This document shows positions 35,820-40,057 of a stretch of DNA of 64,000 nt, piece by piece. Within the stretch, counting starts at the first letter, position 1. Each line of letters begins with the position of its first letter. The notes beneath the pieces were generated by a model. It had not been told where the DNA came from and ran no database searches. It was given only the letters and a program-made list of their open reading frames with translations. The stretch comes from Methylomonas sp. UP202 (GTDB lineage Bacteria > Pseudomonadota > Gammaproteobacteria > Methylococcales > Methylomonadaceae). The stretch lies in assembly GCF_029910655.1 (NCBI RefSeq), contig NZ_CP123897.1, forward strand, positions 5,321,547 through 5,385,546, given 5' to 3'. The position numbers were made by a program, and so were the translations under genes.

Positions 35820-36152
35820 ATGAATGCTTTGCCAGAAAAAACCTGTTCGATCGATAAACTGATCCGTCACCCAAAATTGATTGCCTCCGCACTGGCCGGA
35901 CATAAAACCCAGCAACGCCGAGACGGCCTGTATGCCTATCCCGGAGAGAGATTTTTTTTGGAAGGGATCGAGTTCGAGATTATCGGCGTGGATCGCCAAC
36001 GCCTCGGAGACATGACCGATGCCGACGCTGACGCCGAAGGCTATCCGGATTTAGCAAGCTACAAGACAGTGATTTTAAGCATGCATGCCGGCATGCAATG
36101 GAACGAGGACGGCTTGGTTTGGGTTCACCGCTTCAGCCGGCGCCTGGAATAA
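35820..36152 (+). CDS. ASCH/PUA-fold small protein
   Basis: 110 residues. The pattern HKTQQRRDGLYAYPGERF, EFEIIGVDRQRLGDMTDADADAEGYPDLASYK and MHAGMQWNEDGLVWVHRF matches ASCH-type domains, a beta-barrel related to PUA that binds RNA or modified nucleosides. The function of this subgroup is unknown. It starts at ATG 35820, divergent from the chemosensory operon, and its end overlaps the 3' end of the convergent hvfC-like gene by 20 bases. Confidence 0.8.
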   Translation: MNALPEKTCSIDKLIRHPKLIASALAGHKTQQRRDGLYAYPGERFFLEGIEFEIIGVDRQRLGDMTDADADAEGYPDLASYKTVILSMHAGMQWNEDGLVWVHRFSRRLE

Positions 36153-36888
36153 CGATGCCTTTCTCGGCGAGTTCGGTCAACATCCTCGCGCCAAACTCCA
36201 AAACCGAGGTGCGATCGAGCTGCGGGAACTCTTCACCGAGTTTATCCAGGCAGGCTCGCCCCGGCATTGCGCCGCATTCGTCCAAGATTTGCAAGGCTCG
36301 AATTGTTAACGGTGTGGTTTTCAGAAAATGCACGTCGTCATCGATATCGCGGTAAACAATCAAACATGTCGGCTGATCGCCCGGCATTTCCGGTAGAAAC
36401 GCCGGAGAAATAGCTTGTACTGGAAATTGGTAAAGCAAGGGCCAAGCCAGCGGCGACAGCCGGACGACGCGATTCAGCGAATCGGTTATAAAGTCGGCAT
36501 CCCCAATCGAGGCTTGCTCTTGGGCGATCGACAACGCCATTTCCACCCATTCGTAATGAGCTAACTCCAGTAGGAAAGGGTAATCCGCTGGGTTATCCCG
36601 TTGGTTTTGCAGATAATCGAGAAACTCTTCGGCGATTTGCGAAAAGTATGGCGTTCGGCACGGGTGACGGGCATAAAAATCCTCGGCCATCTCCCGCCAT
36701 TGCTGGTCGGTCAGCACGGTTTTCAAAACCGGGAAGTTGCTTGCTAAGAAGCTGTCAATATTGTTGAAGAACAATTCGCGGTACATCGCCATCCTGCCCG
36801 AATCGACGTCAGCCGGCGGCCGGTTGGCTAGGGGCGCGCGAATATAGCCGGCAAACTCGCGTTGTGTGGTCGAAAAGTCGACCACCAT
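36133..36888 (-). CDS. hvfC: HvfC-like DUF2063 protein, partner of the MNIO
   Basis: 251 residues with a DUF2063 (putative DNA-binding) domain at the N-terminus: FAGYIRAPLANRPPADVDSGRMAMYRELFFNNIDSFLASNFPVL (key: R at start of the MAMYRELF segment) and WREMAEDFYARHPCRTPYFSQIAEEFLDYL. The C-terminal half is a helical/winged region. In the peptide systems of the HvfABC type this protein forms a complex with the DUF692 oxidase and brings the precursor to it. TGATG: its ATG overlaps the stop of the oxidase gene by one base, implying tight coupling. Despite the domain name, a DNA role is unlikely here. Confidence 0.9.
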   Translation of the reverse strand: MVVDFSTTQREFAGYIRAPLANRPPADVDSGRMAMYRELFFNNIDSFLASNFPVLKTVLTDQQWREMAEDFYARHPCRTPYFSQIAEEFLDYLQNQRDNPADYPFLLELAHYEWVEMALSIAQEQASIGDADFITDSLNRVVRLSPLAWPLLYQFPVQAISPAFLPEMPGDQPTCLIVYRDIDDDVHFLKTTPLTIRALQILDECGAMPGRACLDKLGEEFPQLDRTSVLEFGARMLTELAEKGIVIPGAG

Positions 36889-37739
36889 CAGGCAACCTGC
36901 TTACGGCTATCCATCAACCAATGCTGTTGGATTTGGCTGATCGTATCAACTTCCCCCAACAATTCGGTCAACGGCGGCAGATTGAAATCGCGTTCTAGCA
37001 GGGTCGGAAATACGCCGAACCAGTCATAGGCCTTATTCAGCAACCCCCAAACCGGGTCTACCACCGGGGCGCCGTGCGTATCGACTAGAAAATCCTCGGC
37101 TTCGACGTAGTGCCCGGCAATGTGAGCATATGCAATCCGTTCCGCCGGCATCGCCCGCAAGAACGCCTCGGGATCGTAGCCGTGGTTAACGCTGTTGACG
37201 TAGATATTGTTGATGTCGATCAACACGTCGCAATCGGCCTCGGCGACCACAGCGTTAAAGAAGTCGATCTCGGCCATTTCCTGGCCCGGCGCAGCGTAGT
37301 AGGAAATATTTTCGATGGCGATGCGCTGCTCCAGAATATCCTGAACCCGGCGAATCCGCCCCGCGACATGCCTGACCGCAGCTTCGGTGAACGGTATCGG
37401 CATCAAATCGTATAAGTGCCCGCCATCGCTACAATAACTCAGATGCTCGCTGTAAAATTTGATGCTGTGCAGACGCAAAAACCCTTTCAAATCGCGAACA
37501 AATTGCTCGTCCAAGGGATCGCTGCTACCGATCGACAGCGATAAACCGTGACAAACAAAAGGGTAGCGCTCGGTCAGCGCTCGAAATTGCTTGCCATATT
37601 TGCCGCCGATCGGCATCCAGTTTTCCGGCGCGACCTCATAAAAACCGACATTGGTCGGCGGTGCATTCAGGATTTCACCAATAAAGCCGCGCCGCAATCC
37701 CAGGCCGGCGCCATGCACGAGATTGCGAACGCTGTCCAT
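36888..37739 (-). CDS. hvfB: HvfB-like DUF692 multinuclear non-heme iron oxidase (MNIO)
   Basis: 283 residues, a TIM-barrel of the DUF692/MNIO family. Conserved His, Glu, Asp and Asn likely to bind two or three irons are visible in FVCHGLSLS, KFYSEHLSYC, RIAIENISYYA, VLIDINNIYVNSVNHGYDP, IAYAHIAGHY, LVDTHGAPV and LLERDFNLPP. Enzymes of this family oxidise cysteine residues of ribosomal peptides, for example to oxazolone/thioamide pairs, thioethers or copper-binding forms. The gene follows DedA by three bases and overlaps hvfC. The neighbouring Cys-rich secreted peptide is its probable substrate. Confidence 0.93.
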   Translation of the reverse strand: MDSVRNLVHGAGLGLRRGFIGEILNAPPTNVGFYEVAPENWMPIGGKYGKQFRALTERYPFVCHGLSLSIGSSDPLDEQFVRDLKGFLRLHSIKFYSEHLSYCSDGGHLYDLMPIPFTEAAVRHVAGRIRRVQDILEQRIAIENISYYAAPGQEMAEIDFFNAVVAEADCDVLIDINNIYVNSVNHGYDPEAFLRAMPAERIAYAHIAGHYVEAEDFLVDTHGAPVVDPVWGLLNKAYDWFGVFPTLLERDFNLPPLTELLGEVDTISQIQQHWLMDSRKQVA

Positions 37740-37742
37740 ACC

Positions 37743-38306
37743 TTATTCCTCCGGCTTGTGCGTGGATCGCCAAAACAACACCAATCCAATCGCCACGAGC
37801 ACGCCCAGAATATACATTTCGTATTTTTTGACTTGGCCCATGATGGATTCGGCAAACTGACCAAAGGTGTAACCTAAATATCCAACCGCTATCGCCCAAA
37901 TCGCCGCGCCAAGAAAATTCAGCGCGAAGAACTTCAACGGATGGATCTTGCTGGCCCCGATCACAAACGGCGTGACGTTACGCACGCCGTATAAAAACCG
38001 GAAACCCAATATGACCGGTATCTGATGCTTGTGCAGCAACTCAAACACTTTGTCGGTCTTGCTGTGCCAGAGCGGCCGCTTCTCCAGAAAGGCGATACCT
38101 TTCCAGCGCCCCAGATAGAAAAAAGTCTGGTCCCCGGCAAACGTGCCGAGAAAAGCCGTCAGCATCACCCATTGCAACTCCAAATAACCACCGTGGGCCA
38201 GAAAGCCGGCTATCACGAGAATGGTTTCCCCTTCCAAATACGTACCGATGAATAGCGCGAGATAACCGTAGTCGATAACGAGCTGCTGTAAATCCTGAAA
38301 ATCCAT
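37743..38306 (-). CDS. DedA-family membrane protein within the hvf locus
   Basis: 187 residues with about five hydrophobic segments and the DedA (SNARE-associated) signatures: GTYLEGETILVIAGFLAHGGYL, GTFAGDQTFFYLGRWKG, FRFLYGVRNVTPFVIGASK. DedA proteins are inner-membrane proteins linked to lipid scrambling and proton-driven homeostasis. In this locus it sits between precursor and oxidase, where many related operons have a DoxX-type membrane protein (HvfD); it may play a matching role in membrane or export functions, which is inference from position. Confidence 0.9.
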   Translation of the reverse strand: MDFQDLQQLVIDYGYLALFIGTYLEGETILVIAGFLAHGGYLELQWVMLTAFLGTFAGDQTFFYLGRWKGIAFLEKRPLWHSKTDKVFELLHKHQIPVILGFRFLYGVRNVTPFVIGASKIHPLKFFALNFLGAAIWAIAVGYLGYTFGQFAESIMGQVKKYEMYILGVLVAIGLVLFWRSTHKPEE

Positions 38307-38335
38307 AATGAGGGTCTATACGGTCATACCAAGAA

Positions 38336-38881
38336 TTAATGGCCGGCCGCTTTATCGGCGTCCACTTTGCCGCCGCAACTACCTTCGCCACCCTTCATCA
38401 TCGCTCCACAGGAACCGTCTCCACCTTTACCACCTTGCATCATCGCTCCGCAACTGCCTTCGGACGACTTTTTATCCTTATCATTGTCATGATTCATGCC
38501 GCCCATCATCATGCCGCACGCCCCATCCTTGCCTTTCATCATCGCTCCGCAGGAATGTTCCATGCCGGGTTTCATTTTGCCGCCCTGCATCATCCCGCCG
38601 CACATGCCTTCGCCGCAGGAACCCTCGGTTTTTTTAGGTTCGGCTTTTTTGGCGCCTTTTACGACTTTTTGGCCGTTGCTATCCATCGCATTCGAACCGC
38701 AGGCACCTTCGCTGATTCTGCCGTTGGAATGGCTAGGATGAGTTTCGGCCAACTGCATGTAACCGCCATCCATTTCCGTCAGCGAAAAGGGATTGGCATC
38801 GGCTTGGACATTGACGGCCAAACTGGACAAAACGGCGGTACCCATCGCGGCGACCAGCGGAGATTTGTTGAATTTTTTCAT
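38336..38881 (-). CDS. hvfA: HvfA-like secreted Cys/Met-rich precursor peptide (MNIO substrate)
   Basis: 181 residues. A signal peptide (MKKFNKSPLVAAMGTAVLSSLAVNVQA, about 27) is followed by a low-complexity mature part rich in Gly, Met, Lys. It contains eight cysteines, each in a short x-Gly/Ser-x-Cys-Gly motif: EGACG, EGSCG, EGMCG, EHSCG, DGACG, EGSCG, DGSCG, EGSCG. In HvfA-type peptides the Cys of EGKCG repeats is modified by the MNIO to bind copper. Methionine clusters (GAMM, GMMMGGM) may add copper binding. AGAGGA lies eight bases before ATG 38881; the frame extends to 38956 without a better start. First gene of hvfA-dedA-hvfB-hvfC. Confidence 0.9.
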   Translation of the reverse strand: MKKFNKSPLVAAMGTAVLSSLAVNVQADANPFSLTEMDGGYMQLAETHPSHSNGRISEGACGSNAMDSNGQKVVKGAKKAEPKKTEGSCGEGMCGGMMQGGKMKPGMEHSCGAMMKGKDGACGMMMGGMNHDNDKDKKSSEGSCGAMMQGGKGGDGSCGAMMKGGEGSCGGKVDADKAAGH

Positions 38882-38986
38882 GCTGTTATCCTCTCGTTGA
38901 ATTTTTATAATAATTTTGGTCGGCAACCCGAAACCGTTGCTACGACCGATGTACAACCGTATTCGTTCATTCTGATTATTGCATAC

Positions 38987-39622
38987 TCAGGTTAAATTCT
39001 TGTCTTTAAATTCGCACAGGTCGGCGATGCAACAAGCCTCGCAACGCGGTTTTCTGGCCACGCAAATATAACGGCCATGCAAGATCAGTAAATGGTGGGC
39101 ATCTTTCTTGAAAAGCTTGGGTACGGTCTTGTCCAATTGCTTCTCCACCGTCAATACATTTTTGCCCGCCGCCAAGCCGGTCCGATTAGCAACCCGGAAG
39201 ATATGGGTATCCACCGCGATCGTCGGTTCACCGAAGGCCGTGTTCAAAATCACGTTCGCGGTTTTGCGGCCAACGCCGGCCAAGGCTTCCAGCGCCGCCC
39301 GGTCGCGAGGCACCTCGCCGCCGTGCTTTTCGATCAAAGTCTGACAAAGTTTTATGACATTTGCCGCTTTGCTATTGAATAAGCCTATGGTCTTGATGTA
39401 TTCCTTCAGCCCTTCTTCACCGAGCTGCAGGATCGTTTGCGGCGTATTCGCGACCGGAAATAATTTCGCGGTAGCCTTGTTGACGCCTTTGTCGGTCGCC
39501 TGAGCCGATAGCACCACCGCCACCAACAATTCGAACGGCGTCGTGTAGTTCAGCTCGGTAGTCGGCTCGGGGATGGCTTCGGCCAATCGCTGAAAGATCG
39601 CCAGACGCTTGGAAGTATTCAT
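38987..39622 (-). CDS. nth: Endonuclease III
   Basis: 211 residues, a DNA glycosylase/AP lyase for oxidised pyrimidines in base excision repair. The helix-hairpin-helix LAGVGRKTANVIL carries the catalytic Lys, VDTHIFRVANR follows with the catalytic Asp, and the four cysteines of the [4Fe-4S] cluster lie at the end in the spacing C-x6-C-x2-C-x5-C (CVARKPRC, CEAC, ADLC). It is upstream of the hvf locus on the same strand with a 105-base gap, so it may or may not share a transcript. Confidence 0.96.
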   Translation of the reverse strand: MNTSKRLAIFQRLAEAIPEPTTELNYTTPFELLVAVVLSAQATDKGVNKATAKLFPVANTPQTILQLGEEGLKEYIKTIGLFNSKAANVIKLCQTLIEKHGGEVPRDRAALEALAGVGRKTANVILNTAFGEPTIAVDTHIFRVANRTGLAAGKNVLTVEKQLDKTVPKLFKKDAHHLLILHGRYICVARKPRCEACCIADLCEFKDKNLT

Positions 39623-39721: not shown

Positions 39722-40057
39722 ATGAATAAAATAATCACGTTAGCCATCGGCACCCTATTGTTCGCCGCGACCGGCGCCTTCGCCGAAGAGCATGCCGCGA
39801 CAGCTTTAGAACACGCCAACCAAGCAGTGGTCCACGGTAAGGCCGGCCACGCGTCCGTCTTGGTCGAGCACGCCGAAGCCGCGCTGCCTCACGCCAAAAA
39901 AGGCGAAGAAGTCGCCAAGGGTGAGGCCAAAACCCACTTAAGCGCCGGCGTCAAGTCGCTGGAAAGCGCCATCGAACACGGCAAGCTAGGCCACACCGAT
40001 ATGGCAACCAAAGCCGCCGAGGAAGCGGTTGAACACATCAAGGCCGGCAACCACTAA
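39722..40057 (+). CDS. smbP: SmbP-like small metal-binding periplasmic protein
   Basis: 111 residues. A signal peptide (MNKIITLAIGTLLFAATGAFA) precedes a helical protein with regularly spaced histidines: EHAATALEHANQAVVHGKAGHAS, VEHAEAALPHAKKGEE, SAIEHGKLGHTDM, EAVEHIKAGNH. The heptad-like His repeats match SmbP of Nitrosomonas europaea, a periplasmic copper-binding protein with a four-helix bundle. GGGGG lies four bases before the ATG. It is divergent from nth and near the hvf locus, which suggests shared copper handling. Confidence 0.88.
   Translation: MNKIITLAIGTLLFAATGAFAEEHAATALEHANQAVVHGKAGHASVLVEHAEAALPHAKKGEEVAKGEAKTHLSAGVKSLESAIEHGKLGHTDMATKAAEEAVEHIKAGNH

Follow-up and report, generated by a model that had tools for sequence, protein, structure and literature searches.

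A stretch of 64,000 nucleotides from Methylomonas sp. UP202 (NZ_CP123897.1, positions 5,321,547 to 5,385,546; hereafter the window) carries on its minus strand, from 38881 down to 36133, an operon of four genes that code, in this order, for a precursor peptide, a DedA membrane protein, an MNIO oxidase and an HvfC partner. We propose that this is a thiooxazole-metallophore operon of the captophorin, HvfABC-type class with a precursor that has diverged in Methylomonas, an interpretation to which we assign a probability of about two in three. Judged from its genes, the operon probably makes a secreted, modified and copper-holding peptide that has lost the lysine motif and is rich in methionine. 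A preliminary description of the same DNA had placed an HvfA/B/C-type peptide locus at 36133..38881; these coordinates are correct, and the eight-cysteine precursor, DUF692 oxidase and DUF2063 partner that it named are all present. The gaps of 1 to 29 bases that it gave among its three genes need correction, as precursor and oxidase lie about 600 bases apart and the space between them is taken up by a fourth gene missing from its list, that of the DedA/VTT protein.

The precursor and its cysteine motifs

The precursor (38336..38881, minus strand) has 181 amino acids, including 8 cysteines, and 18 methionines among the 152 residues that start with NPF. A putative Sec-type signal peptide can be recognized by eye in residues 1-27 (38801..38881), with a KK N-region, a hydrophobic core and the boundary VQA/DANPF, and shortly after it comes an NPFx7GYM block (residues 30-42; 38756..38794). 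The strict form of this block occurs in 74 of the 81 distinct precursor open reading frames (ORFs) and a looser form in 80, the exception being the L027 fragment; the block is a candidate element for recognition by HvfC. The precursor core (38372..38710) contains cysteines 61, 89, 94, 111, 122, 144, 158 and 169 in [ED][GH][SAM]CG motifs, which read EGACG, EGSCG, EGMCG, EHSCG, DGACG, EGSCG, DGSCG and EGSCG, and Met-Met occurs within four residues after the cysteine at five of the eight sites.

The replacement of EGKCG by EGxCG that had been pointed out earlier is borne out, with lysine at none of the eight sites, and extends through the genus. Lysine precedes the cysteine at 125 of 132 sites outside Methylococcales (18 precursors), at 102 of 310 in other Methylococcales (39 precursors) and at 6 of 191 in Methylomonas (24 distinct precursors), where the position is held mostly by serine (99) and alanine (50), followed by methionine (20), glycine (8), glutamine (4), asparagine (2) and threonine (2); KCG is wholly absent from 20 of the 24. 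The change from lysine to a small residue is a clade trait of Methylomonas. Glycine follows the cysteine at 191 of 191 Methylomonas sites, and glutamate, aspartate or glutamine stands three residues before it at 185 of 191. That the loss of lysine is unique to this genus had to be rejected: it is contradicted by the precursor of L135 and by lysine-free motifs in PMC13097082 (this and the other articles are cited here for the passages that bear on the locus). The captophorin class described there already has varied residues around the cysteine, some of them without lysine (NVCGG, LVHCY), so lysine-free motifs as such are not new; a methionine-rich captophorin form is not named in the main text of that article. 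The L135 precursor (gammaproteobacterium G274) has mostly asparagine before the cysteine (EGNCG, EANCG, ESNCG) and lysine at 2 of 8 sites, a separate loss.

Methionine makes up on average 4.3% of precursors outside Methylococcales, with single ones reaching 11.2%, 11.3% of those in other Methylococcales and 11.8% of those in Methylomonas. It is found at +2 to +4 of the cysteine at 14 of 132, 207 of 313 and 147 of 191 sites, respectively, and Met-Met pairs near cysteines number 0 outside the order, 108 in other Methylococcales and 94 in Methylomonas. This richness is not a genome-wide bias: genus precursors contain 12.1% methionine, the oxidases that accompany them 2.7% and the accompanying HvfC proteins 2.6%.

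The precursor counts rest on phmmer matches at E 1e-5, with identical mature sequences collapsed. One locus, L018, was grouped with Methylomonas for the residue before cysteine, methionine near cysteine and HvfX, and with other Methylococcales for the oxidase pocket and columns and for the comparison of precursor methionine with that of oxidase and HvfC. In twenty of the 80 named loci phmmer gave no precursor match, and these were left out of the residue counts: five that are of the KC type by reading, with lysine before cysteine in L054 (5/5 sites), L063 (13/13), L064 (5/5), L075 (8/10) and L080 (6/6); L082, with lysine at 3 of 4 sites; L045, which has a candidate ORF; and L021, L024, L025, L032, L043, L047, L049, L052, L057, L066, L067, L076 and L078. 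The collecting query was the window's own precursor, and since this is methionine-rich any resulting bias should disfavour the finding of methionine-poor precursors; five non-Methylococcales precursors that the query missed and that were read are of the KC type. Tandem pairs of precursor genes before one oxidase were seen in two Methylococcales metagenome-assembled genomes (L012:4812-5866, L013:5042-5868).

Family relationships and expected modification

The oxidase (36888..37739, minus strand; 283 amino acids) matches the HvfB model NF003818 with 435.3 bits (cut-off 360) and the DUF692 family PF05114 with 353.9 bits, and the partner (36133..36888, minus strand; 251 amino acids; DUF2063/NGO1945 C-terminal) matches the HvfC model NF050145 with 294.1 bits (cut-off 142), PF09836 and PF22106 also scoring above cut-off. 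Structural relatives are 3bww for the oxidase (E 2.1e-74) and 3dee for HvfC (E 2.1e-9). Among the matches listed, the closest named oxidase loci are those of Methylomonas methanica (two strains), Methylomonas sp. LW13 and Methylomonas koyamae, with 82-85% identity; the precursor is 99% identical in the same-species genome G378 and 56-77% identical in the same-genus genomes listed. The arrangement that marks the captophorin type, an MNIO with a PME1/DUF2063 partner beside a cysteine-rich precursor in an apparent operon, is present here. Bufferin identity was rejected, as the oxidase scores 269.4 bits on the BufB model NF050167 (cut-off 310), and so was methanobactin identity, with 45.5 bits on the MbnB model TIGR04159 (cut-off 325).

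Several observations weigh against our proposal. The precursor scores 18.8 bits on the HvfA model NF050188 (cut-off 95) and does not match the KCGExKCG domain model NF050137 at E 0.1 (cut-off 19.5). AlphaFold2 gave no fold for it (mean pLDDT 47.9) from a shallow alignment of 22 sequences with the signal peptide included, whereas a beta-helix has been described for an EGKCG protein (PMC12452194). HvfX, a frequent member of such operons, is missing from this one, no metal regulator or copper transporter is found in the operon, and no CueR-like operator or copper-box was seen by eye 5' of the precursor. Serine, methionine and glycine before the cysteine and histidine at position 2 are not among the FonBC variants described in the passages of PMC13097082, and the same article calls for more work on what these peptides do physiologically. 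In favour of the proposal, copper-linked work on the class has been published (PMC13097082, PMC12452194). The label HvfA/B/C-type therefore stands for the oxidase and the partner but not for the precursor, which is not to be classed as HvfA because the defining motif, the repeated EGKCG of the Buf_EGKCG and oxazolin groups, is absent from it and both HvfA models fail to pick it up; it has no Pfam match either.

Comparison with known systems places the locus within this class and apart from its described members. With oxazolin (HvfA/B/C/X of Haemophilus influenzae), since re-assigned as a 5-thiooxazole peptide (PMC13097082, PMC13419390), it shares the HvfB and HvfC families, a probably secreted precursor with cysteine repeats and EGxCG-like sites; however, the Methylomonas precursor is longer, methionine-rich and without lysine before cysteine, and its operon contains DedA and not HvfX. 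The fontiphorin system (FonABC) of the captophorin class has the same combination of MNIO and PME1/DUF2063 partner and specificity residues Arg, Arg, Asp and Phe, but its product is an EGKCG/EAKCG lysine-cysteine peptide (PMC13097082). Bufferins and the Buf_EGKCG group likewise combine MNIO and DUF2063 proteins with a cysteine precursor, which is Sec-dependent in their case and probably so here, the latter group having EGKCG repeats and mostly DoxX (PMC12452194; its main text names neither DedA nor methionine). Methanobactin (MbnABC) shares an MNIO oxidase and the theme of a copper peptide in a methanotroph; it differs from the window locus, which has an HvfC partner and a long, probably exported precursor.

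The substrate site of FonB takes its shape from Arg15, Arg16, Asp249 and Phe250 (PMC13097082), which by motif, rather than by an alignment with FonB, correspond to R16, R17, D251 and F252 of the window oxidase. This RRDF pocket is retained by all genus oxidases but one (27 of 28; L106 carries Lys16), by 48 of 48 from other Methylococcales and by 23 of 27 others, the remaining four having leucine for phenylalanine; at the 85% level, only four columns tell the oxidases of the genus from those outside Methylococcales (L7/P, I23/L, M42/I, V172/L). On the substrate side, FonBC takes alanine, threonine or arginine for lysine and aspartate for glutamate, is severely impaired by phenylalanine or glutamate for lysine, and tolerates proline nowhere; after the cysteine it takes, in the EGKCG frame, only glycine or alanine, though an LVHCY substrate was modified once (PMC13097082). 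Phenylalanine, glutamate and proline never precede the cysteine in the 24 Methylomonas precursors. By this analogy, the genus precursors have drifted within the limits tolerated by the related FonBC. Given the retained pocket residues and substitutions within that tolerance, the same ring, by its current assignment a 5-thiooxazole and no longer an oxazolone/thioamide, would be the default expectation, a different ring being disfavoured. The earlier suggestion that the modified product may differ gains little from these data: the residues matching FonB and the glycine after the cysteine are kept, and what differs is the lysine-poor, methionine-rich surroundings.

We accordingly envisage a pathway modelled, in its oxidation step, on FonBC, HvfBC and NgoBC. 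In the cytoplasm, HvfC and HvfB would associate with the precursor and oxidize up to eight of its cysteines, by four electrons each, to 5-thiooxazoles. Sec export and removal of the signal peptide would follow, and the lysine-poor, methionine-rich chain could then bind copper in the periplasm via its thiooxazoles and the nearby Met-Met pairs. Such a peptide might buffer copper in a bacterium with a high copper demand for methane oxidation. If this is true, models based on EGKCG miss a methanotroph branch with near-unchanged oxidases, and the class extends beyond those models; the branch would serve as a natural experiment on the substrate positions recognized by the oxidase, would include a likely copper-binding peptide in a methanotroph without an oxidase reaching the methanobactin model, and would give a DedA protein a metal-linked gene context.

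The DedA gene

The DedA gene (37743..38306, minus strand) codes for a membrane protein of 187 amino acids that matches the DedA/VTT family PF09335 with 70.7 bits (gathering score 33.9); residues E25, E27, D59, R103 and R109 are invariant among the six sequences aligned. It follows the precursor gene after 29 bases and precedes by 3 bases the oxidase gene, which in turn overlaps hvfC by 1 base, a tight spacing from which we take it to be probably co-transcribed with the operon. The four-gene order recurs in 23 of the 29 DedA loci L085-L113 (L112 is cut at its end, and five have DedA alone) and in five named loci (L004, L005, L006, L008, L034). Given this conservation across same-genus genomes, the arrangement exceeds chance. 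The DedA-bearing named loci all come from Methylomonas, except for the metagenome-assembled L008, which shares an identical DedA with a genome of the genus. The idea that DedA commonly belongs to MNIO operons was rejected, since these five are the ones with it between precursor and oxidase among the best 80 named loci, out of at least 587 confirmed relatives, some of these loci being cut at contig ends. DedA hits in L070, L077 and L083 lie behind a hemL-like gene and belong to another subfamily.

Of 36 genomes of the genus, that of UP202 included, 25 have DedA next to the oxidase. It lies apart from it in seven (G006, G007, G008, G014, G026, G027 and, as a partial match, G029), and an orthologue of more than 60% identity is absent from four (G001, G013, G015, G019; G001 also lacks an oxidase match). 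In one clade, the stand-alone copies adjoin genes whose sequences look like those of ion-transport genes. These exceptions would suit a DedA gene that is a chance passenger of the operon, unrelated to the peptide, which we consider possible but doubtful: in most of the genus the gene is held between precursor and oxidase with those short gaps, and in a tree built from 37 rows, 29 of them different, all six genus copies that stand alone fall into a single supported group (95/87) within the operonic copies, as after one move out, on a rooting that rests on one distant row and with some deep forks open. DedA probably entered the operon early in the genus and then left it once. Under our proposal of a captophorin-type operon, it would be an inner-membrane partner, possibly aiding metal or proton handling, and would be dispensable for the core chemistry, since related operons do without it. 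DedA proteins have been linked to indium efflux in Rhodanobacter, with a link to selenite cited in the same article (PMC8679861). Among open-licence papers, taken without their supplements, none was found in which DedA and MNIO occur together, and the main texts of PMC12452194, PMC13097082 and PMC13419390 do not contain the word DedA.

HvfX was found within 1.5 kb after hvfC in 0 of 45 Methylococcales loci versus 12 of 25 others (phmmer, two HvfX queries), and a homologue above 200 bits lies away from the operon in 26 of 36 genus genomes. UP202 itself has an unlinked one at L180:4870-5514 (C1:2212475-2212993 by the model; 212.5 bits, cut-off 80), so the parts of HvfABCX are scattered over its genome. 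A simple replacement of HvfX by DedA does not emerge cleanly from the ten genomes without HvfX above 200 bits. Operonic DedA in G003, G004, G009, G022, G032 and G033 fits it (a lower-scoring HvfX is still present in G022 and G032), whereas G019, 95% complete and with neither HvfX nor DedA, contradicts it; in G014 and G029 DedA lies apart, and G001 has no oxidase match.

An unlinked precursor and alternative readings

The genome of UP202 contains a further, orphan precursor of 112 amino acids with an NPF-GYM block (C1:4312969-4313307; L171:4969-5307), unlinked to the operon and next to what we presume from their sequences to be isc-like genes. Its motifs are DGSCGEGKCG, EGKCA and EGNCG, and it matches the KCGExKCG model NF050137 with 21.5 bits (cut-off 19.5). 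Counterparts are found in 25 of 25 same-genus genomes searched, on another contig than the oxidase or more than 170 kb from it (G001 has no oxidase match), and EGKCG is kept in all six orphan precursors read. By eye, no oxidase-like ORF was seen near the orphan in its own 10 kb or in the four contexts L171-L174. These features suggest that the orphan may be modified in trans and may explain the lysine-compatible pocket, that is, that the oxidase stays lysine-compatible through this second client. We regard this as tentative and somewhat unlikely, since the operon precursor is conserved and adjacent, so that both clients are compatible, and the orphan could be served by a second HvfB-type cluster where one is present.

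Such a cluster is seen in UP202, whose three PF05114 proteins are the window oxidase, a second HvfB type and a BufB type, none of which reaches the methanobactin model. The second HvfB cluster (L121:5013-8167) comprises a MerR-type regulator, a precursor that has EGKCGEGKCG once and GCS four times, an oxidase with RRDS instead of RRDF, an HvfC-like protein and HvfX (119.8 bits). The BufB-type oxidase (L121:16340-17503, minus strand) scores 370.5 bits (cut-off 310), and a BufA2-like precursor beside it 35.3 bits, under the cut-off of 60.

Particulate methane monooxygenase, the key enzyme of methanotrophs, needs copper. The product could be a Cu(I) reservoir for the enzymes of methane oxidation and not a detoxifier, with Met-Met pairs beside the thiooxazoles that hold the metal at high capacity and release it and DedA coupling this to the membrane. 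The enrichment of methionine at +2 to +4 and of Met-Met pairs in Methylomonas and other Methylococcales relative to precursors outside the order favours such a role, and a 40-residue methionine-rich query matched 6 of 274 class genomes, its own with E 2.5e-11 and five others weakly (E 2.8e-4 to 8.7e-4), the Met-Met unit being present in none of the four of these five with a readable precursor. We nevertheless think it unlikely, as it derives from composition and lifestyle: the same query missed two same-order genomes, G039 and the same-family G308, which shows that the methionine-rich form is not universal there, single precursors outside the order come close to it in methionine content, and a loose chain could have become enriched through drift. 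More unlikely still is the comprehensive picture of a Methylococcales thiooxazole branch in which lysine beside the ring gave way to small residues and methionine pairs, resulting in a dense thiooxazole-thioether copper store that would supply methane monooxygenase, and in which Methylomonas would have gained a dedicated DedA and would share its oxidase with the unlinked lysine-type precursor. That the loss of lysine alters the chemistry, with different or incomplete modification at the [SAM]-Cys sites or some cysteines left free, would agree with the near-absence of lysine in the genus as against precursors outside Methylococcales, with the contact of substrate Lys3 with Phe250 in the FonB model (PMC13097082) and with off-pattern first cysteine sites in some members (QGACG, EAGCG), but is improbable, given that FonBC takes alanine, threonine or arginine there and modified NVCGG substrates once (PMC13097082), that the lysine side chain lies outside the ring, and that the pocket residues are unchanged.

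Control region and neighbouring genes

The precursor ATG at 38881 is preceded by a purine-rich stretch resembling a ribosome site, and about 100 bases 5' of it lies the element TATGCMATAATC (38972..38988, minus strand), which is shared by 16 of the 18 Methylomonas upstream regions that were aligned and missing from L018 and L105. It could be an extended -10 promoter; a consensus promoter scan did not pick it and found no more than it did in shuffles. In the window and in 13 of the 15 loci compared, nth lies ahead of the precursor in the same orientation, so that read-through from nth is possible. No gene like those of the operon appears in the passages of a Methylomonas transcriptome paper, PMC6373157, and no Rfam family reaches its gathering score in the window.

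Divergent from nth and the operon is a gene for a small metal-binding protein (39722-40057, plus strand; PF16785, 125.1 bits, cut-off 29), which stands beside nth in 4 of 15 loci (L127, L128, L004, L006). On the other side, a convergent ORF of 110 amino acids (35820-36152, plus strand) overlaps the end of hvfC by 20 bases; it has no Pfam or NCBIfam match, and a counterpart is present in 13 of the 15 loci compared.

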